Part shown: positions 34,344 through 47,682 of the stretch, in pieces | Position numbering within the stretch: position 1 is the stretch's first letter | Layout of the letters: every line of letters starts with the position of its first letter | NCBI RefSeq assembly: GCF_003050865.1 | Contig: NZ_QAOK01000005.1 | Span: forward strand, 1-64,000 | Direction of reading: 5' to 3' | DNA from: Nitrosospira multiformis | Lineage (GTDB): Bacteria; Pseudomonadota; Gammaproteobacteria; Burkholderiales; Nitrosomonadaceae | Length of the DNA stretch: 64,000 nucleotides | The notes under the pieces: model-generated | Told to the model about the DNA's origin: nothing | The model's database searches: none | What the model saw: only the letters and a program-made list of their open reading frames with translations | Program-made: the position numbers and the translations under genes

Positions 34344-34562
34344 TTATTTACCGGTCTCGTACTTGAAAGACAGGCTTACCCTCGCACGATAAGCCACCAC
34401 CTTGCCATTTTCAACCACCAGATCCAGCTTCACTATTTCAGCGACGCGTAAGTCTCTCAATGTCTTTGATGCTGTTTCCACGGCGTTCTTGGCGGCGTCT
34501 TCCCAGGAAGTCGTGCTGGTTCCGATTATCTCCGTTATTTTGTAAACGCTATCTCCAGCCAT
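34344..34562 (-). CDS. dodecin (flavin-binding)
   Basis: A 72-residue protein with the ATG at 34562 and AAGGAG before it. The sequence AGDSVYKITEIIGTSTTSWED ... AKNAVETASKTLRDLRVAEI ... KVVAYRARVSLSFKYE is that of bacterial dodecins. These form hollow dodecamers that bind pairs of FMN or other flavins, or CoA, and buffer them in the cytosol. The listed longer frame is an upstream extension without function. It stands alone between the clpSA terminator and cphA, on the minus strand. Confidence 0.92.
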   Translation of the reverse strand: MAGDSVYKITEIIGTSTTSWEDAAKNAVETASKTLRDLRVAEIVKLDLVVENGKVVAYRARVSLSFKYETGK

Positions 34563-34945
34563 GAAATTCTCCTTCGTAGGTGAACAACATAAACTCAGCA
34601 CCGGACAAACCGGTATCTCTACTGACGTGATTTTCAGTTTAGGTTCAATTTTTGCGGATTGCAACCGGTAAGGAGCTAAAACTGCCCACTCTCCCCACCT
34701 CTCACCGGAAGAGTGCGGATTTCGGAACAATAGAGGGGAAATGAGTTACCTTTGTCGATTCAGTCTTCGATCCTTCGGCAGGCATGTCCTGAGTTCCATT
34801 CAACCTTCGATCCTTCTTCAAGCTCAGGATCGGGCGAACAGAGAAGAAGGACTCGACGTTTTTGCGTAAAACCGGAGTAAGAAACCCTTGAAACGCTCGG
34901 ATCAAGAGGTGTTCCGCGAATCTCGGGGAATGGATAACTCCCCTA
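34563..34945. other. gene-free spacer with short repeat fragments
   Basis: About 380 bases between dodecin and cphA without a supported gene. From 34764 to 34829 it holds two copies of TTCGATCCTTC, each near a CCTGAG or CTCAGGA, at 40 bases spacing. This resembles fragments of the TCGAAGGA...CAGGAC-type dispersed REP elements of betaproteobacteria. The dodecin promoter and any cphA terminator must be here, but none is convincing. Confidence 0.35.
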
Positions 34946-37516
34946 TCAGCCAGCTACCACCCGCTTGGTGATGTATCCCAGCGCCTCATCCACCTGATCG
35001 ATGAGAATAAGACACAATTCTCCCTCTTTCAGATCGTCAAATGCGGCATCAATGGCTCCAAACTCTCCGTAGATTTCCTTGATCTTCCGGGTGCGTTTCG
35101 CCTTTTCCAGGCCCTGCCGCAGCAGGCTCAATACCTCCCCATTCGCGCGACCGCGCTGGCACTGATCCTGATAAAGCACCACTTCATCGAAAGCATCTCC
35201 CAGTATTTCCGTCTGCCGCCGAATATCCTCATCGCGTCGATCGCCAGCACCGCTGATAACCACGAAGCGCCGTTTTGCCGGAATCTTGTCGATTGCATTT
35301 ACAAGTGCGCGAATCGCATCGACATTATGGCCGTAGTCGGCAATAAGTGTAGCCCCCCGATGAGTGAAGAAATTGAAGCGTCCGGGAGCGGTTTGCATGT
35401 CGCTGACAAAATTCGCGAGATCGCCGCGAATGATCTGCCAGTCGAGACCCAGCGCCCAGCCTGCTGCGACGGCCGCCATGGCGTTTTCAATCTGGAATGC
35501 GATCGCGCCATTCTGTGTCACAGGTATGCCTGCAAACGGAAGGCGATATTCGAAATTGCCTTCCGCAGCGATGATTGCGTCGCCATCGACGTAAACGACA
35601 CGTTTACGTTGGGCGCGATGCTTCGCGATCACGGGATTATCCGGATCGCGCGCAAAAAAAGTGACCTTGCCAGGGCAATGAGCGGCCATGCCTGCCACAA
35701 ACGGATCAGCGGCGTTCAGCACTGCCACACCTGTCCCGGGCTTCACATTCTGCACGATGATGCGTTTGACGGCGGTCAGATCCTCCACGGTATTGATGTA
35801 GGAAAGACCGAGGTGATCACCGACTCCGATGTTGGTAACCACCGCGACATCACAACGATCGAAAGCCAATCCTTCGCGCAGCAGACCACCTCTCGCAGTT
35901 TCAAGCACTGCCGCGTCCACATCCGGATGAAGAAGCACTTTTCTTGCACTCTTGGGACCGCTGCAATCGCCGGTGTCGATACGTTGCCCCTCAATATAGA
36001 CGCCGTCCGTGCTTGTCATGCCGACCCGCAGGCCCTGACAATCAAGAATATTGGCAATCAGCCTGACAGTAGTCGTTTTGCCGTTGGTGCCTGTTACCGC
36101 CACTACCGGAATGCGGGCATCATCACCCTTCTTGAACATGTTTGCAATGATCGCCTCTCCCACCGCCCGCCCTTTGCCGAAGGAAGGCTGCAAATGCATG
36201 CGCAAACCCGGCGCTGCATTGATTTCGATAATGGCGCCTTGTCCCTCCAGAGGTCTGGACACGCTTTCGCAGACAACATCCACTCCACAGATATCAAGGC
36301 CAATCATCTGGGCAGCTTCGCCCATACGCGCCGCAAATTCCGAATGAACTTCGTCGGTAACATCTGTCGCCGTTCCGCCGGTCGAAAGATTCGCATTATT
36401 CCTGAGAACTACTCGCGTTCCCACCGGCGGTACGGATTCCGATGTCAGACCCTGAGTTGCAAGGTGGGCAAGAGCGATTTCATCAAAATGGATTTTTGTA
36501 AGCGCGTTGGCATGTCCCTCACCGCGTCGCGGATCACTGTTGATCTGCTCCACCAATTCTCCAACCGTGTGAATCCCATCCCCTGCAACCTGGGGTGGCT
36601 CACGTCGTGCTGCGGCGACCAGCTTGTTGCCGACTACCAGCATGCGATAGTCGTGGCCGGGAATGTAGCGCTCAACCATTACTTTTCCAGTGACTTCAAC
36701 CGCAACGGCGTATGCTGCTTCCACCTGCTCTCGGCTCACGAGATTCACGCGGACCCCCCTTCCCTGATTGCCGTCCTGCGGCTTGACGACGACAGGGCTG
36801 CCGATTTCACAGGTCGCCACCCATGCATCCTCCGCACTTGTAACCGGCCTTCCGGGTGTGACAGGTACGCCGGCAGCATCCAGCAAGAAGCGGGTAAGCT
36901 CTTTGTCCTGCGCGACCGACTCGGCTACCAGGCTGGTAAGGCAGGTTTCTGCAGCCTGAATACGCCGCTGCCTGCTACCCCAGCCGAATTGCACCATGCT
37001 GCCATCAGTCAGCCGGTGGAAGGGAATACCGCGGGCAACCGCTGCCCGCACTACTGAACCGGTGCTCGGCCCCAGGCGTATGTCCTCATAGAGCTCACGC
37101 AGATGCTGCAGGGCATCCGCCAGATTGAAAGGGGTATCTTCGATAGCCGCGCTGCACAGGGCTTGTGCAAGATCAAAGGCGAGCCTGCCAACCGCCTCTT
37201 CGCTGTATTCCACGACGACCTGGTAAACGTCGGCTTCAAGCGTCGGAGCGATCTTGCTGAAAGCCACCGGGCAACCCACCTGTACTTCGAGTCCGAGTGC
37301 AGTGCGCTCGAGCGCATGCGCAAGCATTTCCGCTTCAGAGCAAGATGCGGCTCGAAGCAAATCGATTTGCGGGAATCGCGCGTACAGGCGATCCAGAAAA
37401 CCCGGCATGCCGCCCGGCAGGGATTCAGGAGTGTCGCAGGAAACGACTGCCTCTATGGCTGTCTGACGGCTCCACAAATTGGGCCCGCGCAAAGCGCGGA
37501 GACGTGATACTTGCAT
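34946..37516 (-). CDS. cphA: cyanophycin synthetase CphA
   Basis: An 856-residue enzyme that extends the (beta-Asp-Arg)n reserve polymer with ATP. Domains: N-domain (1-160), ATP-grasp for Asp addition (about 200-460, with VVVKPQDGNQGRGV and EINAAPGLRMH) and a Mur-ligase-like module for Arg addition with an intact P-loop GTNGKTT (476-482), LETARGGLLREGLAFD and a Mur C-terminal domain (about 715-856, IADYGHNVDAIRAL). The N-domain has diverged: the HxxEH segment found in the paralogue is replaced (VAFSKIAPTLEAD region). It lies 49 bases downstream of the paralogue cphA', so they probably form one transcript. Confidence 0.93.
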   Translation of the reverse strand: MQVSRLRALRGPNLWSRQTAIEAVVSCDTPESLPGGMPGFLDRLYARFPQIDLLRAASCSEAEMLAHALERTALGLEVQVGCPVAFSKIAPTLEADVYQVVVEYSEEAVGRLAFDLAQALCSAAIEDTPFNLADALQHLRELYEDIRLGPSTGSVVRAAVARGIPFHRLTDGSMVQFGWGSRQRRIQAAETCLTSLVAESVAQDKELTRFLLDAAGVPVTPGRPVTSAEDAWVATCEIGSPVVVKPQDGNQGRGVRVNLVSREQVEAAYAVAVEVTGKVMVERYIPGHDYRMLVVGNKLVAAARREPPQVAGDGIHTVGELVEQINSDPRRGEGHANALTKIHFDEIALAHLATQGLTSESVPPVGTRVVLRNNANLSTGGTATDVTDEVHSEFAARMGEAAQMIGLDICGVDVVCESVSRPLEGQGAIIEINAAPGLRMHLQPSFGKGRAVGEAIIANMFKKGDDARIPVVAVTGTNGKTTTVRLIANILDCQGLRVGMTSTDGVYIEGQRIDTGDCSGPKSARKVLLHPDVDAAVLETARGGLLREGLAFDRCDVAVVTNIGVGDHLGLSYINTVEDLTAVKRIIVQNVKPGTGVAVLNAADPFVAGMAAHCPGKVTFFARDPDNPVIAKHRAQRKRVVYVDGDAIIAAEGNFEYRLPFAGIPVTQNGAIAFQIENAMAAVAAGWALGLDWQIIRGDLANFVSDMQTAPGRFNFFTHRGATLIADYGHNVDAIRALVNAIDKIPAKRRFVVISGAGDRRDEDIRRQTEILGDAFDEVVLYQDQCQRGRANGEVLSLLRQGLEKAKRTRKIKEIYGEFGAIDAAFDDLKEGELCLILIDQVDEALGYITKRVVAG

Positions 37517-37565
37517 CGGCAGTTCTCCTAGCGTTTCTTATTCAGCGGAGGTTTACTGATTCTTT

Positions 37566-39806
37566 TTACGCCTTGTTAAACGCGTGAAAGTTTCCAATCC
37601 CCGCGCGTATGACGGCCAGGTCGATGCCGAGTGACCATGCGGCGCCTACTGCCGCGAGTACATTTTCGACCTCCAAAACATCCTGCCCGTTACATGTAAC
37701 CGGAACATCGTTCAATTTACTCAGTAGCAGTTCACCGGACCCGTCAACAAGGAAAATTTCTCCGTCTCGAACCGTTACCGCCCGTTTGCCTTGAACGCCG
37801 TTTATACCAGCGGTGCCGTGCAAGCAATGCTCTTTTATTACCGGAAGATCGGAATCCAGGCTGAAGTAAATAATTTCCCCATTGCACAGCGCAGCCATTT
37901 CCACCAGCATCGGTTCCCTGGCGTTGAGCACTGCCGCACCTGCGGGCACGACTACATCCACTTGGGTACGCAACAGGTCGAAGACCTGTTTGGGGGTTTC
38001 GAGATACTTTCCATAATGACGGGTCAACTCCACATTGGCAACGATGCCGACATGACAGCCATCGTAGGCCAATCCCTCGCGCAGCATGCTGTCACTGCCG
38101 TTTTCAAAAACCGCCGCCTCGATTGACCGGTTCATGAGAATGTTGCGCGCTGTCTTCCAGTTGGCCTGATCGCCTTTTTTCACTTGCCTGCGGTCAAGAT
38201 AGAAGCCGTCGCTGCATGCCAGGCCCGTCTGCTTTCCGGATAGCGCGAGCAGTTGAGCAATGAGATGAGCCAGATTGGTTGTACCATAACTGCCGGTAAT
38301 ACCTACAACCGGAATGCGGCCGTCCTCGTAGCTCGGGAAGAGATGCTCGACGATCGCTTCACCGACCGGACGCGGGGTACCAATAGCGGGCTTGATGTGC
38401 ATCAGCAAACCGGGTCCGGCATTGACTTCGACAATGGCTCCGCCCTGTTCTGCAAGCGGCCGCGCGATATCCGTGGCGACAAGATCGATGCCCGCAATAT
38501 CCAGCCCGACAACACGCGCCGCCAGCGAAGCCGCCGCCGCCGTACTGGGATGCACCTCGTCGGTAACATCGAAAGCATGGTTACCGTTACGCTGAATGAT
38601 GACTTCCTGCCCGACAAGCGGTATTGAATCCGTGGTGAAACCTTGCCGCAGGAGTTCCATTATCGTTACCCCATCCACACTGACCGGATTCAGTGGATGA
38701 TCTTCACTTTCCCCCCGACGGGGATCAGAGTTGAGCTGCTGCTGGATCAGTTCGTTTATGGTGGAAATCCCATCGCCTGTAACCGAAACGGAATCACCCC
38801 GGCTTGCGGCGACGAGACGGCCCCCGACTACCAGCAGGCGGTGTTCCGTACCGGGAACATAACCCTCGACCAGGACACCGCTGCCCTCTTCCAGAGCTAC
38901 CCTATAAGCGGACTCGATTTCTTCACGCTTGCTCAACTCGATAAAAACGCCGCGCCCATGATTTCCGTCACACGGCTTGATCACCACCGGCAGACCGATT
39001 TCCTGGGCCGCTTCCCATGCATCCTCGGCGCTGTGAACGATGCGGCCCTCAGGGATGGCGACACCGCACGATTGAAGCAGTGCTTTGGTCAGATCCTTAT
39101 CGCGCGAGATGCTTTCTGCAATTGCGGGAGTGCGGTCCGTTTCGGCTGTCCAGATGCGCTGGCTTCGGATGCCATAGCCCAACTGTACCAGATTGCCCTT
39201 GGCAAGAAGGCGAATCGCCGGAATGTTGCGGCTGGCGGCAGCTTCAACAATGCAGGCAGTGGATGGCCCGAGCCACAGCGAATCGATCATCCCGCGCAGA
39301 TGCGCAACAGCGCCTCTCACATCGTAAGGTTCGTCCCCCGGTGAATAATCCATTGCCGCAAGCAGCAATTCCCTTGCTGCTGCGAGAGCATTGCGCGTGA
39401 CATCCTCATGCCACGCGCTCACAGCCACCTTGTAGACACCGCGCAGGGATGTTTCGCGCGCCCGGCCGAAGCCACCGGGCATTCCTGCCAGATTTTGCAG
39501 TTCAAGCGTAACGTGCTCGAGAATATGGCCAGTCCAGGTACCTTCCTTTAAACGGCGCAGAAATCCGCCCCGCTCCCCATAGCTGCAGCGGTGCTCAATG
39601 AGCGAAGGAAGCCAGGAAGACAGGCATTCATAGAAACCGGGGATTGTGTCGGAGGGAAAGTCTTCGAGTTCCCCGATATCGACAATGGCTTCAAGTACGG
39701 GACGAACACTCCAGATATTGGGTCCGTTGAGGTGACGTATTTCAATAAACTTGATATCCCGATTTACCGTTATGTAGTCAGGTTTGGTATCTGCGTAAGC
39801 CAGCAT
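37566..39806 (-). CDS. second cyanophycin synthetase-like protein (CphA')
   Basis: A 746-residue paralogue of CphA. It keeps the canonical N-domain (HLNGPNIWSVRP, PGFYECL, GGFLRRLKEGT, HILEHVTLELQ with HxxEH at 94-98) and a full ATP-grasp domain (VVIKPCDGNHGRGV, VEVNAGPGLLMH). The Mur module is degenerate: the P-loop is GSYGTTN (505-511) with Thr509 where the Lys should be, ARGG is replaced by ENGS, and the protein ends at FHAFNKA with no Mur C-terminal domain. Arg ligation by this protein is therefore unlikely. Truncated CphA' / CphA2 proteins are known, for example in Ralstonia and cyanobacteria; one cyanobacterial CphA2 polymerises the dipeptide. First gene before cphA. Confidence 0.88.
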   Translation of the reverse strand: MLAYADTKPDYITVNRDIKFIEIRHLNGPNIWSVRPVLEAIVDIGELEDFPSDTIPGFYECLSSWLPSLIEHRCSYGERGGFLRRLKEGTWTGHILEHVTLELQNLAGMPGGFGRARETSLRGVYKVAVSAWHEDVTRNALAAARELLLAAMDYSPGDEPYDVRGAVAHLRGMIDSLWLGPSTACIVEAAASRNIPAIRLLAKGNLVQLGYGIRSQRIWTAETDRTPAIAESISRDKDLTKALLQSCGVAIPEGRIVHSAEDAWEAAQEIGLPVVIKPCDGNHGRGVFIELSKREEIESAYRVALEEGSGVLVEGYVPGTEHRLLVVGGRLVAASRGDSVSVTGDGISTINELIQQQLNSDPRRGESEDHPLNPVSVDGVTIMELLRQGFTTDSIPLVGQEVIIQRNGNHAFDVTDEVHPSTAAAASLAARVVGLDIAGIDLVATDIARPLAEQGGAIVEVNAGPGLLMHIKPAIGTPRPVGEAIVEHLFPSYEDGRIPVVGITGSYGTTNLAHLIAQLLALSGKQTGLACSDGFYLDRRQVKKGDQANWKTARNILMNRSIEAAVFENGSDSMLREGLAYDGCHVGIVANVELTRHYGKYLETPKQVFDLLRTQVDVVVPAGAAVLNAREPMLVEMAALCNGEIIYFSLDSDLPVIKEHCLHGTAGINGVQGKRAVTVRDGEIFLVDGSGELLLSKLNDVPVTCNGQDVLEVENVLAAVGAAWSLGIDLAVIRAGIGNFHAFNKA

Positions 39807-40190: not shown

Positions 40191-40670
40191 TCAGAGGAAG
40201 CGGTCGAGGACCTTTCGGCTGTGATGATCAAGCGCCGTACGGTCGCGTATCAGGAAATTGATGTTCTGACTGTCGGTGATCAGCAAAGCGATTGGAGTCA
40301 GACGGCGAATGTATTCTTCGCCCTTGAGAACGAATGACGTGCTTCCGCGGTCGGTTTCAACTCGCCAGGTGCTGGGGGTGGCAAAACTTGAAACTGCCTC
40401 GATGCGTTTGATTTCCGGCATGAACTCCCGGTTGGCAAGATCCGTTTCAACATGCCTGCGCGCCTCATCGGGAAGGTCGCTCAACACCTCGATCCACGCC
40501 AGCTCATGGCCATCCGTATCGACCAGCGAGATACCGCGGCTGGGAGCGGTAATGGGAAAAGCCCGTACCGGAACCACACCCTCTCGTACTTCCCCGTTCG
40601 CTCCGATAAACATCAGTCGTCCAAAGGCATTGCGGCTCAGGGAGTAGTGTAAGGGCACTTTTTCCGTCAT
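40191..40670 (-). CDS. DUF1854 protein of the cyanophycin locus
   Basis: A 159-residue soluble protein with the DUF1854 pattern: FGRLMFIGANGEVREGVVPVRAFP, GISLVDTDGHELAWIEVLSDLP, RRHVETDLANREFMPEIKRI and a C-terminal FLIRDRTALDHHSRKVLDRF. Function unknown. Its ATG overlaps the stop of the ABC gene by four bases (ATGA), so the two proteins are probably made in fixed proportion. The pairing with an ABC exporter-like protein next to cyanophycin synthetases recurs in betaproteobacteria, as I recall, and points to a role in cyanophycin metabolism. Confidence 0.85.
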   Translation of the reverse strand: MTEKVPLHYSLSRNAFGRLMFIGANGEVREGVVPVRAFPITAPSRGISLVDTDGHELAWIEVLSDLPDEARRHVETDLANREFMPEIKRIEAVSSFATPSTWRVETDRGSTSFVLKGEEYIRRLTPIALLITDSQNINFLIRDRTALDHHSRKVLDRFL

Positions 40671-43009
40671 TCCCGGCCACCTTCAGCCCTTGGCTCCGGG
40701 CTCAGCCCGCGCAGATCGTCCTCTGTGTCCACATTGCGCACTTGCGCCTGGTAAAGCCGGTAATAATGCCCTTCACGCGCCATGAGTTCATCATGATTGC
40801 CTATTTCGATAACGCTTCCGCGATCAAGAACGATAAGCCGACTGGCATCACGCAATGTGGAGAGCCGGTGGGCAATCGCGATGGTAGTCCGACCGCGCAC
40901 CAGGTTTTCGAGCGCTTTCTGGATCTCTTTCTCGGTGGTCGTATCCACGGAGGATGTCGCTTCGTCCAGGATCAGAATACGCGGATCGATTAGCAGTGCC
41001 CTTGCAATCGATATGCGTTGCCGCTCTCCACCCGAGAGCGCCTGCCCCCGTTCGCCGACCAGAGAGTCATAGCCGTGCGGCAGGCGGAGAATAAACTCAT
41101 GCGCATGCGCAGCTCGTGCAGCGGTGACAATTTCCTCCTCTGTCGCGTTCGGTCTGCCGTAGGCAATATTCTCGGCAATGGTACCGAAAAACAAAAAGGG
41201 TTCCTGAAGAACAAGCCCGATATGCTTGCGGTATTCCGCGACCGGAAGCGCGCGTATATCCACGCCATCCAGCAGGATTGCGCCTTCCGTCACGTCGTAG
41301 AAACGGCAGATCAGATTGACGAGCGTACTCTTGCCTGAGCCGCTATGTCCTACCAGACCCACCATTTCACCCGGCTCGATGGTTATATTGATGTCGTGCG
41401 TGACTGTGCGGGTACCGTAGCGGAACTCGACATTTCGCAACTCGATTCGCCCCTCTACGATGGGCAGGTGTACAGGGTGGGCCGGCTCCGGAACGCTGGA
41501 AACGTGATCGAGAATTTCGAAGATGCGCTTGGTGCCGGCAGCGGCCTTTTGCGTAAACGAGACGATACGGCTCATCGAATCCAGCCGCACATAGAAACGG
41601 CTGATGTAGGTGAGAAAAGCCGTCAGCACGCCTACCGTGATTTCATCTTTTGATACCTGCCAGATACCGAAAACCCACACCACCAGCAAACCGATCTCGG
41701 TCAGCAGCACGACTGTTGGCGTGAACATCGACCAGACTTTGTTGACCCGGTCATTGACTTCCCGATTGCGTTCATTGGCAGCGCGAAAGCGGGTTGCCTC
41801 CCGCTTCTCCTGCGCAAACGCCTTCACCACCCGCACGCCGGGAATGGTGTCGGCAAGCACGCTGGTCAACTCGGCCCAAACGCGATCGACCTTCTCGAAC
41901 CCGGTCCGCAACTTATCGCGAACCAGATGGATCAGCCACGCAATGATCGGCAACGGCGTCAGGGTGACCAGCGCAAGCCACGGCTCGATCGAAACCAGGA
42001 TAATGGTCGTCATGCCGATCATCAGCACGTCGGTCGCGAAATCGAGCAGGTGCAGCGACAGGAAAATGTTGAGGCGGTCTGTTTCCGACCCGATACGCGC
42101 CATGAGATCCCCCGTGCGCTTGCCGCCGAAATAGGCGTGCGAGAGTTTGAGAAGATGCTCGAAAGTGGCTGTACGCAAATCAGCACCAATGTGCTCGGAA
42201 ACCAGTGCGAGTACGTAAGTGCGTGCCCATCCCAATCCCCAGGCCACAATCGCGGCTCCGAGCAGTCCGGTCAGATAAAAACCAACCAGTTCAACGTCAA
42301 TCGGCTTACCGTTCTGATAGGGAATCAGTACGTTGTCCATCAGGGGCATGGTCAGGTACGGAGGCACCATCGCCGCTCCCGTGCTGCCAAGCGTCAGAAG
42401 AAAACCGGCAAAAAGTCTCCACTTGTAGGGTCTGGCGAAACGCCACAAGCGTAACAGGGTCCAGGTAGACGGTGGCGCGTGTACTTGCTTGCGGCACGCT
42501 TCGCACTCCTCCTGCCCCGGAGCCAGTGAAACATCCAGTATCCTGTGACACTTGGGGCAGAGAATCTGTACAGGTAAAGAGCGAAACTCCCCTGTCAAGT
42601 GATAATGAAGTTGCTCACGGAAATTATCGATGAGCCGGCTGGCCGCAGCATCCCTCCCCAATGTGTAGCGCCAGCGTGCAAGTAGCGCGTTCTCATCGAA
42701 AAGCTCAAGACTGCCGACGCCTGCATGATCGCTGCGCACAAGCGTCAGTCCGAGCCGGTAACTCCACTCCTGCCACGTTGTCGCCGCCCCCGCTTCCGCC
42801 TTAGCGAGCAGACGTTTATTGGTGACGACTACAAGTTCAGGATCAAAATGCAGTCGGTCATTGAGGTCAGTTTCGAGCCATGCCGCCACCTTTTCTCCCT
42901 TGGAAAGCCGCGATTCAACAGCCCCAATCCAGGCAGCTGGCAGAGCAGGCGCCACTGCGTCTGGCAGCATGTCATCGGGAGAAATCGGCGAAAGCCCGGA
43001 TTCCGGCAT
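40667..43009 (-). CDS. ABC exporter-like protein with N-terminal PH-like domain and zinc ribbon, cyanophycin locus
   Basis: A 780-residue half-transporter. Unusually it begins with about 145 soluble residues resembling a bacterial PH-like domain (LHFDPELVVVTNKRLL, VGSLELFDENALLARWRYTLG), then a zinc ribbon with C151-x2-C154 and C169-x2-C172. Next come six transmembrane segments (about 195-480) and an ATPase domain with Walker A GHSGSGKST, Q-loop VLQEPFLF, signature ALSGGERQR, Walker B ILILDEATS and an AIAHRLST switch. It should homodimerise in the inner membrane. The substrate is unknown. It is coupled to the DUF1854 gene and upstream of cphA'-cphA, so a link to cyanophycin or its precursors is inferred. 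Confidence 0.85.
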   Translation of the reverse strand: MPESGLSPISPDDMLPDAVAPALPAAWIGAVESRLSKGEKVAAWLETDLNDRLHFDPELVVVTNKRLLAKAEAGAATTWQEWSYRLGLTLVRSDHAGVGSLELFDENALLARWRYTLGRDAAASRLIDNFREQLHYHLTGEFRSLPVQILCPKCHRILDVSLAPGQEECEACRKQVHAPPSTWTLLRLWRFARPYKWRLFAGFLLTLGSTGAAMVPPYLTMPLMDNVLIPYQNGKPIDVELVGFYLTGLLGAAIVAWGLGWARTYVLALVSEHIGADLRTATFEHLLKLSHAYFGGKRTGDLMARIGSETDRLNIFLSLHLLDFATDVLMIGMTTIILVSIEPWLALVTLTPLPIIAWLIHLVRDKLRTGFEKVDRVWAELTSVLADTIPGVRVVKAFAQEKREATRFRAANERNREVNDRVNKVWSMFTPTVVLLTEIGLLVVWVFGIWQVSKDEITVGVLTAFLTYISRFYVRLDSMSRIVSFTQKAAAGTKRIFEILDHVSSVPEPAHPVHLPIVEGRIELRNVEFRYGTRTVTHDINITIEPGEMVGLVGHSGSGKSTLVNLICRFYDVTEGAILLDGVDIRALPVAEYRKHIGLVLQEPFLFFGTIAENIAYGRPNATEEEIVTAARAAHAHEFILRLPHGYDSLVGERGQALSGGERQRISIARALLIDPRILILDEATSSVDTTTEKEIQKALENLVRGRTTIAIAHRLSTLRDASRLIVLDRGSVIEIGNHDELMAREGHYYRLYQAQVRNVDTEDDLRGLSPEPRAEGGRE

Positions 43010-44272: not shown

Positions 44273-45499
44273 TCAGGTGCTCCCCTGCTTCGCTTTGTGC
44301 ACAGCTTTTCTGATACTTTCAAGTGCTGCTTCAATGATGCTACGGGGCGCACCGATATTCATGCGCATGAAACCGCTGCCTTCTTCGCCAAACAAAGTGC
44401 CCGGACTCATACCGATACCCGCTTCATGCACAAAAAAATGCCTGAGCTGGATATCAGTCATCCCCAATGCGTTCATCAGCTCGTGGCAATCAAACCAGAG
44501 CAGATACGTGCCTTCGGGGTCGATGAGGTGGATTTCAGGGAGGTGGGTCGCCAGATACTCTGAGACAAAATCACGGGTTTTCTGTAGATAAACCAGCAAT
44601 TCATCCAGCCAGACTTCACCTTCCCGATAGGCTGCCTCGAAAGCAGCAATGCTGAAAGGATTGGATGCGCTGGCATGCAGGATATCGAACGTCCGCGCAA
44701 GCTCTTCCCGATGCCTGGAATCCGGCACGACGAGAGCGGAAAGATTCAATCCGGGAATGTTGAATGCCTTGCTGGGGGCGACAGCTGTTATGACATCTGC
44801 CTTGCTTCCGGCCCATGCTTTCGCCAGCCGTGAGAGCATATGATGCCTGGCTTCGGGATAAATCAGATCAGCATGGATTTCGTCGGAAAATACCACGAGG
44901 TTGTGTTTATCCGCTATCCGCAGGATGCGTTCGAGTTCCCCCCTGCTCCACACTCTGCCGACGGGATTATGCGGTGAGCATAACAGCAGGAGACGTGCGC
45001 CTTGCGCGCATTGCTCGAGATGATCGTAATCGATCTCATAATGGCCATTCCGCAACCGCAGCGGATTCTGTACGAGTTGCCTGCCGGTACTGGTGACGGC
45101 AGAAAAAAAGGGGAAATATACCGGCGGCTGCACGATAACCGGTTCTCCGGGTTGCGCAAAGGTCATGATAGCGGCATGCAACGACGGAACCACGCCGGGG
45201 CACATCATGATCCAGTCTCGCTCGATCTCCCAGCCATGACGACGCCTCAGCCAATCAATCAGCGACTCATACAAACTGTCGGGAAAGACGGTGTACCCAT
45301 ACACCGGATGGGCGGCGCGTCGAGAAAGCGCCCGCGTGACCGCGGCTGGAGCGGCAAAATCCATGTCCGCGACCCATAGGGGAATTACTCCCGCTGCGCC
45401 AAACATGCTTTGGCGCTTGTCGTATTTCAGGCTGGCTGTCCCGGTCCGGTCAATTTCCTTATCAAAATCCTGGTTCCCGATGGAAGAGCTTCTGTTCAA
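44273..45499 (-). CDS. ovoB: PLP-dependent beta-lyase OvoB (PatB/MalY type), ovothiol synthesis
   Basis: A 408-residue fold-type I PLP enzyme of the MalY/PatB group: ASLKYDKRQSMFG, PLWVADMDFAAP, the NPVGRVWSR motif, DEIHADLIYPEARH and the PLP lysine in AVAPSKAFNIPGLN. In ovothiol synthesis OvoB splits the histidylcysteine sulfoxide made by OvoA into 5-mercaptohistidine. The assignment rests on direct coupling to ovoA: the start is TTG at 45499 overlapping the ovoA stop (TTGA), with GGGAG seven bases before. No ATG is available before the conserved N-terminal motifs, so the TTG is well supported. Alone, the sequence would be called cystathionine beta-lyase-like. Confidence 0.82.
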   Translation of the reverse strand: MNRSSSIGNQDFDKEIDRTGTASLKYDKRQSMFGAAGVIPLWVADMDFAAPAAVTRALSRRAAHPVYGYTVFPDSLYESLIDWLRRRHGWEIERDWIMMCPGVVPSLHAAIMTFAQPGEPVIVQPPVYFPFFSAVTSTGRQLVQNPLRLRNGHYEIDYDHLEQCAQGARLLLLCSPHNPVGRVWSRGELERILRIADKHNLVVFSDEIHADLIYPEARHHMLSRLAKAWAGSKADVITAVAPSKAFNIPGLNLSALVVPDSRHREELARTFDILHASASNPFSIAAFEAAYREGEVWLDELLVYLQKTRDFVSEYLATHLPEIHLIDPEGTYLLWFDCHELMNALGMTDIQLRHFFVHEAGIGMSPGTLFGEEGSGFMRMNIGAPRSIIEAALESIRKAVHKAKQGST

Positions 45500-47682
45500 A
45501 CAACTTTCTCCCAGATTGTTACTTCCGAGAGTGTGTGCTGGAATTTACGGCGTGTTTCGCGAATAACAAATGGAACTTCCGTGGGCCCCTGAATCAGCTT
45601 GAAGTGGGTACTCAGAATTTCTTTCAGCCCATCGAGCGTTCCGAAACTTTCACCATCCCGCTTGAATCCACCGATCCAGGCTTCCCGCTTGGTATGTTCC
45701 TCCAGCCATGTATAAGGAGAGGCAATCAGCAGAATACCGCCGGGATTGAGGCGAGTGTGTATGGATGTGAGCAGTTTGGCCGGATCATAAAGGCGGTCTA
45801 TGAGATTCGCCGCGAGAATCAGGTCATAACCTGTATAGAGCGGCTTGAGATTACAGGCATCGCCCTGATAAAACGCCACTTTGTGCCTGACGTTATCGAG
45901 GCCCAGTCCAGTCAGCGTCCGCTCCCGGTAAAAGACCAGATCACCTTCATCGGCGAGGGTATAGCGCAGCACGCCTTGCGACGCCAACTGAACTCCCTGC
46001 CCAATGAAGCGGGCGGAGAAATCGACTCCTGTCACCTCATCGAAATGTCGCGCCAGTTCAAAGACGGCCCTCCCCGATGCGCAGCCCAGATCGAACGCCT
46101 TGCGCGCCGGCTTGTCCCCCATGGCGGCAATAGCGAGCTCGGCCAGCGCTTTCGGAAAATTTGGCACACCGAAATAGGTGTCTCCGTAATGGAATTCTGC
46201 ATATTCGGAGAGCAGCTTATCGGTTTCGTAGTGGGAGCCATGCTGAATCGCCGGGGCAGCGCCGACCACATAGCGAAAACCCGCGTGCTGAAAGAAATGG
46301 CGCCGAAACGCGTAACGCGAGTTCTTCAAGGATTCGTTACCGCAGGAAATCCAGGAGCCTCCCTTGATGAGATTGTGCCTGCCATCGAAAGTCGGTGTTG
46401 TGAAATCATCATAGTGGGAATGAACATCAAAGCCGTCGAAAGGATAAATAGGCGTTTCGGTCCACTGCCACACATTCCCGACCACATCGTAAAAATCGCC
46501 CTGGACAAATTCGTTGACAGGGTGGCTGGATGCACCATGATCGAGATGAATGTTGGCTTCGGCTGGTGCGGCAGCCAGAACCTCGGATAATCCCGCCACC
46601 TCATAGAGACGGTACCATTCATCCTCTGTCGGGAGGCGATAAGGCTGGTCGCTCACAGACGCTTTCCAGTTACAGAAGGCCTTGGCTTCGTGATAATTCA
46701 CCTCCACCGGCCAATCCCAGGGCATGGGAACTTCCTTGGTCATCAGGCGCAACTCCCATTCGACGCCTCGCCGGAGCCAGAAAGTAGGATGCTTCGCGCC
46801 AGCATGCTTCAGCCAGGCGCGCCCTTCCTCTTCCCAGTAACTTTCGGTTCCATAGCCTTCCGCCTGAACAAATTCCAGGAATTCCTGATTACTCACCAGG
46901 TATTTGCCAGCTTCGAAGGCTGCAACGTCCGCAATGTGGGTACCGTATTCGTTATCCCATCCGTAGAAAGGATCGTCTTTTTTCTTGCCAAGCTGCACGG
47001 TGCCTTCCGGTACCTTCACCAGCTGATTGTCGGGCGCAACCCCAGATTTACGGTAGGGCTCCCACGCAGGATGGGGAGCGACATGTTCCAGCGCATGCTG
47101 CCGGATAAGGACGGACGAAGTCTCTAGATGAATGCGCTCGTGTTCGATACCCATCACGATCGTCCACCAGGGGCTGTCCCATTCAATGGGCAGGGTCAGA
47201 GGCGTTTCACGAATGAGTCGATCGACGGTTTCCCGCATCCTTCTACGATAGGCTCGCACCTCTTCGACAGAAGGCCAATCGTAATGCGTCGTATCCAGAT
47301 CGTCCCAACTCATTTCATCGACACCCACTGCGAACATCGATTCCATTTTTGGGTTGATACGTTCAGTGATCAGACCCGCGAGCAGCAGTTTATTGGTAAA
47401 GAAGGTGGCCGTATGGCCGAGATAGAATATGAGCGGATGACGCAAAGAAATGGGTTTTTTGAAGTAGGCTGCATCTCCCCGCAGCGTTTCGAAGAGCTGC
47501 TCGTAACGATCCAGTGTGGAATGAAAGTATTCGCGTATTTCCTCGCGCTTTGCCGCAGCATTATCACCTGTAAGAACAGGAGTTCGGGAAAAGAGCTGTT
47601 TGGGCATTACACGCAACTTGGGGTTTTCGGAAGCAGATTGAACAGCTGTGGTTGTTTTCTTTGCATTCAAATTCATGTTCAC
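45496..47682 (-). CDS. ovoA: 5-histidylcysteine sulfoxide synthase / 5-mercaptohistidine methyltransferase OvoA
   Basis: A 728-residue bifunctional enzyme. An N-terminal DinB-like domain carries the iron ligands: His90 (FYLGH) and the HX3HXE motif at 181-187 (HERIHLE). A formylglycine-generating-enzyme-like domain follows (about 215-460: TEDEWYRLYEVAG, VGNVWQWTETP, LIKGGSWISCGNESL, YAFRRHFFQ). The C-terminal part (about 490-728) is a SAM methyltransferase (KAFDLGCASGRAVFELA). This architecture is that of OvoA, which joins cysteine to histidine C5 with O2 and later N-methylates the product. EgtB lacks the methyltransferase domain, which rules out ergothioneine synthesis. It is followed by ovoB with overlap. 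Confidence 0.9.
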   Translation of the reverse strand: MNMNLNAKKTTTAVQSASENPKLRVMPKQLFSRTPVLTGDNAAAKREEIREYFHSTLDRYEQLFETLRGDAAYFKKPISLRHPLIFYLGHTATFFTNKLLLAGLITERINPKMESMFAVGVDEMSWDDLDTTHYDWPSVEEVRAYRRRMRETVDRLIRETPLTLPIEWDSPWWTIVMGIEHERIHLETSSVLIRQHALEHVAPHPAWEPYRKSGVAPDNQLVKVPEGTVQLGKKKDDPFYGWDNEYGTHIADVAAFEAGKYLVSNQEFLEFVQAEGYGTESYWEEEGRAWLKHAGAKHPTFWLRRGVEWELRLMTKEVPMPWDWPVEVNYHEAKAFCNWKASVSDQPYRLPTEDEWYRLYEVAGLSEVLAAAPAEANIHLDHGASSHPVNEFVQGDFYDVVGNVWQWTETPIYPFDGFDVHSHYDDFTTPTFDGRHNLIKGGSWISCGNESLKNSRYAFRRHFFQHAGFRYVVGAAPAIQHGSHYETDKLLSEYAEFHYGDTYFGVPNFPKALAELAIAAMGDKPARKAFDLGCASGRAVFELARHFDEVTGVDFSARFIGQGVQLASQGVLRYTLADEGDLVFYRERTLTGLGLDNVRHKVAFYQGDACNLKPLYTGYDLILAANLIDRLYDPAKLLTSIHTRLNPGGILLIASPYTWLEEHTKREAWIGGFKRDGESFGTLDGLKEILSTHFKLIQGPTEVPFVIRETRRKFQHTLSEVTIWEKVV

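Follow-up and report, generated by a model that had tools for sequence, protein, structure and literature searches.

Tandem cyanophycin synthetases with reciprocal loss of active sites in Nitrosospira multiformis

The cphA'-cphA locus

Cyanophycin stores nitrogen in bacterial cells and has attracted interest in biotechnology. The 64,000 nucleotide stretch of the Nitrosospira multiformis genome analysed here (contig NZ_QAOK01000005.1, positions 1 to 64,000; hereafter the window) encodes two tandem proteins, CphA' and CphA, that resemble the cyanophycin synthetase CphA1. In CphA1 three active sites follow one another in the order N-G-M, an endo-cyanophycinase (N), an aspartate ligase (G) and an arginine ligase (M). 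Here they are distributed over the two proteins, with the N site in CphA' and the G and M sites in CphA, and neither protein holds all three. The two genes lie on the minus strand, 49 bases apart, and an initial annotation of the window had placed both open reading frames (ORFs) correctly. The genes and their diagnostic segments are as follows.

37566..39806, minus strand: cphA', 746 amino acids; N site intact, aspartate and M sites lost, no Mur C domain
39273..39752, minus strand: N domain of CphA' (about residues 19-178), with Pfam PF18921 at residues 42-149 (114.9 bits)
39501..39593, minus strand: zinc-site segment of CphA' (H72, C74, F82, R85, H94, E97, H98, E102)
38562..38600, minus strand: shortened aspartate-binding loop in the G domain of CphA'; the ANLSTGG of CphA1 is not present
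38277..38300, minus strand: degraded Mur P-loop of CphA' (GSYGTT), Thr509 for Lys
34946..37516, minus strand: cphA, 856 amino acids; N site lost, aspartate and M sites intact
37304..37318, minus strand: HxxEH remnant HALER, CphA residues 67-71; equivalents of His79 and Glu82 kept
36374..36394, minus strand: intact aspartate-binding loop ANLSTGG of CphA
36068..36091, minus strand: intact Mur P-loop GTNGKTTT of CphA, with Lys480
35009..35386, minus strand: Mur C-terminal (lid) domain of CphA, PF02875, residues 711-836

Active sites kept and lost

Both proteins were aligned onto SuCphA1, and functional residues were taken from PMC9262961 and PMC9427784. The N site comprises H57, C59, F67, R70, H79, E82, H83 and E87, the G site is inactivated by H267A and the M site by D585A H586A (PMC9262961). 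In TeCphA1, K220, K261, H267, R309, D431 and E450 serve ATP and the acyl phosphate, and R323, N394, S396 and R458 hold the aspartate (PMC9427784). The N domain of SuCphA1 is a slow endo-cyanophycinase that releases mainly (beta-Asp-Arg)4, makes primers and acts in trans (PMC9262961), which bears out the role of primer-making peptidase that the initial annotation had given it.

CphA' keeps all eight N-site residues, those of its zinc-site segment corresponding to SuCphA1 57, 59, 67, 70, 79, 82, 83 and 87. They comprise the C-H-H metal ligands and catalytic Glu of the CphA1 endo-cyanophycinase together with the supporting H57, F67, R70 and E87, and the HxxEH motif expected at residues 94-98 reads HILEH. 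The M domain is degraded as annotated: Thr509 takes the place of the P-loop Lys, ENGS (568-571) stands where CphA has the ETAR of the ARGG motif, and no Mur C-terminal domain accompanies the Pfam matches, which are PF18921, ATP-grasp type models and Mur_ligase_M. Arg also replaces D585. Changes in the G domain had been overlooked; Arg323 is Gly, Ser396 is deleted and Arg458 is Leu (SuCphA1/TeCphA1 numbering).

Against the CphA1 models CphA' scores 1047.3 bits with NF010623 (cut-off 877) and 726.2 bits with TIGR02068, whose cut-off of 850 it does not reach. Its predicted fold is that of CphA1, with a predicted local distance difference test score (pLDDT) of 86.9; against 7wae and 7txv its template modelling score (TM-score), normalised by query length, is 0.86. 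Assignment of CphA' to CphA2 was rejected on the presence of the N motif and on sequence scores, its sequence scoring 369-518 bits to CphA1 vs 187-201 bits to CphA2. No S51 domain with a catalytic Ser, as in the cyanophycinase CphB, is among its Pfam matches.

The zinc site of CphA is lost, because His83 is replaced by Arg and the stretch with His57, Cys59, Phe67 and Arg70 is deleted or replaced. The initial annotation was right on this loss; the HxxEH segment that it took to be wholly gone survives as the HALER remnant. The alignments gave no sign that zinc-site residues have moved to another position in CphA. The intact P-loop (GTNGKTT, Lys480) and Mur C domain are as had been described. Over its full length CphA exceeds both NF010623 (1218.2 bits, cut-off 877) and TIGR02068 (963 bits, cut-off 850). 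Of the ATP, aspartate and M residues compared, it keeps all but two: Gln stands at His267, a change that the initial annotation had missed, and Ser at Glu215. The Cx19HxxEH N site is not obligatory for CphA1, being found in 83% of CphA1 at 70% non-redundancy (PMC9262961). A composite G site shared by the two proteins was set aside by reasoning, as His267 lies within the ATP-grasp fold of the same protomer.

Occurrence of the split pair

The split extends beyond this genome: all pairs examined show the same pattern. Loci were collected from relatives (59), from a CphA' profile search (the best 80 of at least 588 relative-encoding stretches), and from class, phylum and order samples. The main counts refer to the non-identical set; broken CphA' copies are absent from them because only open frames of at least 450 amino acids were picked. 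Loci with short flanks (L001-L032, L093-L102, L183-L209) were left out and longer stretches used instead. The partner CphA of L037, split over two overlapping frames, enters as two rows, and a homologue in genome G134 (380 bits) lay below the score threshold and is in no count.

The N site is complete in 169 of 169 CphA', the aspartate site and the ARGG motif in none, and the six ATP and acyl-phosphate residues in 164. Position 323 is Gly in 167 of these proteins; Arg458 is missing and Ser396 gapped in every one. Their M domains stand at differing stages of loss, with the P-loop Lys in 79/169 and a lid of at least 100 amino acids in 30/169. Paired CphA (165 rows, 163 covering N and G) show the N site in 0/163, the aspartate site in 163/163, the ATP set apart from position 267 in 163/163, and ARGG in 164/164. 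Aspartate ligation had been assigned to CphA' in the initial annotation, and that part of its proposed division of labour is not supported, since Arg323, Asn394, Ser396 and Arg458 are never all present in CphA' and always are in CphA. The other part, in which CphA' has the N-domain peptidase site and CphA the arginine-ligating M domain, is supported by 164 loci and by one clade for each copy. All eight N-site residues are invariant in CphA', and 21 of the 153 occupied N-domain columns are invariant overall, so retention of the N site is more than chance (hypergeometric 3e-8, ignoring relatedness).

Of the 171 pair loci, 164 contain both genes, among them 78 of the 80 from the profile search. 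In all of these the genes share a strand, CphA' is the next gene upstream, and the gap between the frames does not exceed 400 bases. At the seven loci with one gene (L065, L116, L038, L048, L050, L174 and L272) a contig end lies at or near the expected place of the second. Other CphA, outside pairs, number 27 rows from 26 loci, and 24 of the 26 that cover N and G carry the four core N residues; the exceptions are L221, which is of a distant type, and L238, which the pair genome G174 has in addition to its pair. In the sample of the window's order a match was found in 148 of 399 genomes, one match in 9 and two or more in 139, not all of the latter being confirmed as pairs (G848 is not one). The phylum sample gave matches in 29 of 398 genomes, two each in 20 genomes of the same order and one each in the 9 others. 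Two pairs lie outside the window's order, in genomes G410 and G289; in their CphA' (L211 and L212) two and four G-domain ATP residues, respectively, are gone, and all eight N-site residues are kept.

Other arrangements were seen among these loci. L238 of G174 is a second cyanophycin locus; a strong cyanophycinase lies near it, and of its two CphA ORFs one has a disrupted N site. Genome G427 (L221 and L222) encodes a CphA without an N site and a 642 amino acid CphA-like protein without an M site, and has no cyanophycinase match; this is possibly a second, independent two-protein solution. A Mur-ligase-like protein of 560-620 amino acids, with M-domain motifs intact and no recognisable N or G sites, directly follows single-copy cphA1 in L213, L214, L215, L217, L218, L242, L243 and L244.

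Origin and selection

A quick tree of the G domain and M core (78 rows, no bootstrap) placed CphA' in one clade and paired CphA in another, with support values in the Shimodaira-Hasegawa-like approximate likelihood ratio test (SH-aLRT) of 100 and 99, and both together with the single-copy protein of L239 in a clade with support 100. L239, from genome G639, has the N, aspartate and M residues, with ABC transporter and DUF1854 genes adjoining on the opposite strand, and looks like the undivided state; its ORF is cut by a contig end and the genome is 93% complete with 8% contamination. L239 may be sister to both copies or to one of them; a constraint holding all paired rows together was not rejected (approximately unbiased test, p-AU 0.54).

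Ratios of non-synonymous to synonymous substitution (dN/dS) were calculated by the Nei-Gojobori method in 45 comparisons among ten genomes belonging to the window's genus; dS is near saturation, so the contrast alone counts. For the N domain the ratio is 0.048 in CphA' vs 0.168 in CphA, for the M core 0.098 vs 0.056, and for the G domain 0.063 vs 0.069. The value for the CphA' lid (6 comparisons) was not used, the lid being absent from CphA' in this genus. Selection is thus crossed, each copy guarding the sites that it retains, and the G-domain ratio suggests that the CphA' G domain does some job. CphA' of the window was rejected as a pseudogene on its single open frame, the 49 bases to the next gene and the low dN/dS.

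That CphA' might be a decaying or purely structural partner, a pseudo-enzyme scaffold that completes a tetramer, would suit the varied loss in its M domain (lid in 30/169, P-loop Lys in 79/169, ARGG in none). Against it stand the eight N-site residues kept in all 169 proteins and an N-domain ratio that is, together with that of the CphA lid, the lowest of the pair's domains, and we consider it highly improbable.

The G domain also raises the question of whether CphA' might be a ligase that has changed substrate. It would still activate a carboxylate with ATP but join something other than aspartate, perhaps beta-Asp-Arg units or oligomers in the manner of CphA2, with the N domain supplying the ends. 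The complete ATP and acyl-phosphate set in 164 CphA' and a G-domain dN/dS as low as that of CphA are in keeping with this, and absence of the M lid from 139/169 CphA' is reminiscent of CphA2. Arg323, Gly in nearly all CphA', contacts the Asp beta-carboxylate in TeCphA1 (PMC9427784), and its replacement would suit a nucleophile without that carboxylate. However, no CphA' has Ser396 or Arg458, the latter being the contact to the alpha-carboxylate of the aspartate that is added; the ATP residues are altered in five CphA', in two of them at several places; and the sequence is closer to CphA1 than to CphA2. A ligase of this kind seems unlikely.

Cyanophycinase and neighbouring genes

Cyanophycinase was scored as a match to TIGR02069 over its cut-off (126.6) in 80 genomes, a selection of those found (54 with a pair, 26 single-copy). 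It was present in 4/54 pair genomes vs 24/26 single-copy genomes, those without a match among the latter being G427 and G639; single-copy genomes from the window's order had it in all eight cases examined. Inside the fetched stretches the counts were 0/171 pair loci vs 20/26 other loci. The Fisher test (5e-17) is inflated because the genomes are related, and the argument relies on the contrast itself instead of the p-value. An Asparaginase_2 family protein, of the family of IaaA, occurs in 12/25 pair genomes and in 4/4 single-copy genomes examined.

This scarcity, which the initial annotation had not raised, agrees with published surveys, where the lack of a cyanophycinase in beta-proteobacteria is described as unexplained. 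Cyanophycinase was found in 2.8% of 903 beta-proteobacterial genomes with CphA1, vs 70-100% elsewhere in the same table, and this was termed unanticipated (PMC10206079). Two synthetases and no cyanophycinase have been reported for the beta-proteobacteria studied (PMC5178258, PMC5670224), the absence resting in PMC5178258 on Krehenbrink 2002 and a repeat search, and an unknown enzyme or pathway has been proposed for cyanophycin breakdown in these bacteria (PMC5178258, PMC10206079).

The pair in the window is flanked by the following genes.

40191..40670, minus strand: DUF1854 protein, cyanophycin metabolism-associated (NF052234), upstream of cphA'
40667..43009, minus strand: ABC transporter, cyanophycin metabolism-associated (NF052233), upstream of cphA'
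34344-34730, minus strand: dodecin gene, directly after cphA

In 140 pair loci the stretch reaches 3300 bases or more upstream; the ABC gene lies beside 131 of these and the DUF1854 gene beside 130. The ABC gene does not adjoin the pair in 9 of the 140, and NF052233 was over its cut-off elsewhere in 8/8 of these genomes tested. It was also over the cut-off in G639, and in 0/25 other single-copy genomes and 0/14 genomes without a CphA match. Two kinds of locus can thus be told apart in the sample: one combines a cyanophycinase with a single complete CphA1, the other a split pair with the ABC and DUF1854 genes.

This association lends itself to an account in which no reserve is built: CphA' would cut the chain, the conserved transporter would export the pieces, and a cytoplasmic cyanophycinase would not be needed. 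No cyanophycin was seen in wild-type R. eutropha, which has two homologues (2024 review, PMC11362209). In the window's genome, moreover, there are two S51 peptidases that, judged by eye, have a GGTSAG motif and apparent signal peptides and would act outside the cytoplasm. One scores 70 bits to TIGR02069, short of the cut-off, and the other comes from the Pfam search alone; both are distant from known cyanophycinases (L281 997-2049 and L282 2-682, minus strand). Against export, the transporter has no known substrate, and the Asparaginase_2 family protein, a relative of the IaaA that frees Asp and Arg from beta-Asp-Arg, is kept in about half of the pair genomes examined. We think this account improbable.

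In its translation, the transporter shows two CxxC pairs in an N-terminal extension ahead of the membrane domain. Elsewhere in the window, 44273-47682 encodes an OvoA-type 5-histidylcysteine sulfoxide synthase with a methyltransferase domain, adjoined by a PatB-like C-S lyase, an apparent ovothiol locus. An ammonia monooxygenase gene is present in the genome, and the pair occurs in many genomes of its order, which would fit an ammonia-oxidising beta-proteobacterium.

Proposed division of labour

We propose that one ancestral synthetase with all three sites was duplicated in tandem and its work shared out. CphA, having lost the N site, would be the polymerase, using its G and M sites and expected to depend on a primer. 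CphA', with a constrained metallopeptidase site in its N domain and with the aspartate-recognition residues and M catalytic motif gone, is predicted to cleave cyanophycin, and the short chains so formed would serve CphA as primers. The same cutting may also start mobilisation of the stored polymer, since most pair genomes are without a recognisable cyanophycinase. CphA' may join CphA in a mixed oligomer, its ATP-binding G domain acting as a scaffold or ATP-sensing part. On the pattern of residues and selection, CphA' is probably a dedicated endo-cyanophycinase, a primer maker and perhaps a store breaker, and CphA the polymerase.

A bolder form of this proposal is offered tentatively, and we doubt it more than we believe it. 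CphA' would be the missing beta-proteobacterial depolymerase, a zinc endopeptidase replacing the serine-type cyanophycinase and gated by ATP through its G domain in a mixed assembly, so that one complex would build or unbuild the polymer, or cut oligomers for the ABC transporter.

Several observations weigh against a dedicated cutting enzyme that serves polymerisation and storage. Because essentially one duplication underlies the split, its many cases are not independent. With a G domain constrained like that of CphA and an ATP set nearly always complete, CphA' is probably more than an N domain on a dead carrier. By analogy with SuCphA1, whose N domain is slow and yields mostly tetramers, CphA' would be a weak store breaker. 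Four pair genomes do pass TIGR02069, G174 strongly and close to its second locus, and G139, G185 and G858 at 136-163 bits; the two S51 peptidases of the window's genome and the failure to detect polymer in wild-type R. eutropha count on the same side. Finally, position 267, at which the published change to Ala inactivates G, is Gln in 157/164 paired CphA and His in 7. In our view Gln267 does not prove that the G domain of CphA is dead, because the undivided relative L239 has Gln too, but it stays as a caveat.

Comparison with known systems

With CphA1 (SuCphA1 and TeCphA1; 7lg5, 7txv, 7wac) both proteins share the domain order and fold, and both score more than 498 bits to these chains. CphA' is like CphA2 (7ta5, 8fxh) in that its M lid is often missing, and the M site of CphA2 is not used. 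CphA2, however, has no N motif (PMC9262961), whereas CphA' keeps it without exception and is nearer CphA1 in sequence. With CphB, an S51 serine peptidase, CphA' would share the job of cutting cyanophycin; the families are unrelated, and CphA' has a zinc-type HxxEH site.

The closest parallel is an engineered SuCphA1 heterodimer, in which one subunit lacks the N site and has active G and M sites and the other has the N site and inactive G and M sites; it polymerises cyanophycin, somewhat less well without primer (PMC9262961). Its distribution of sites is the one that we infer for CphA and CphA'. The heterodimer is a laboratory construct, whereas CphA and CphA' are a natural conserved gene pair.

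The CphA' of R. eutropha reportedly lacks much of a loop called the J-loop. Tandem cphA pairs have been described from beta-proteobacteria in PMC10687191 and PMC5178258 and from R. eutropha H16 (Adames 2013), and PMC5670224 also mentions two copies. By their description these are the same kind of locus as here, with adjacent cphA genes and no cyanophycinase gene; the pair in PMC10687191 has an ABC transporter alongside. Transcription of the two copies is even in Accumulibacter (PMC10687191). Such pairs are described as two copies or as CphA1 and CphA2, and the available portions of these papers do not describe reciprocal site loss. The literature searched, mostly listings and with few subscription papers, gave no statement of reciprocal site loss or of CphA' as the missing cyanophycinase.

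CphA and CphA' are a natural counterpart to the site-separated heterodimers made in the laboratory. When a beta-proteobacterial cphA is expressed alone, its partner or a primer is probably required, and this may be why production has failed. With its cyanophycin-cutting site kept and its polymer-building substrate sites lost, CphA' is a direct candidate for the missing beta-proteobacterial cyanophycinase, and the split pair may explain the apparent lack of the usual store-degrading enzyme in these bacteria.

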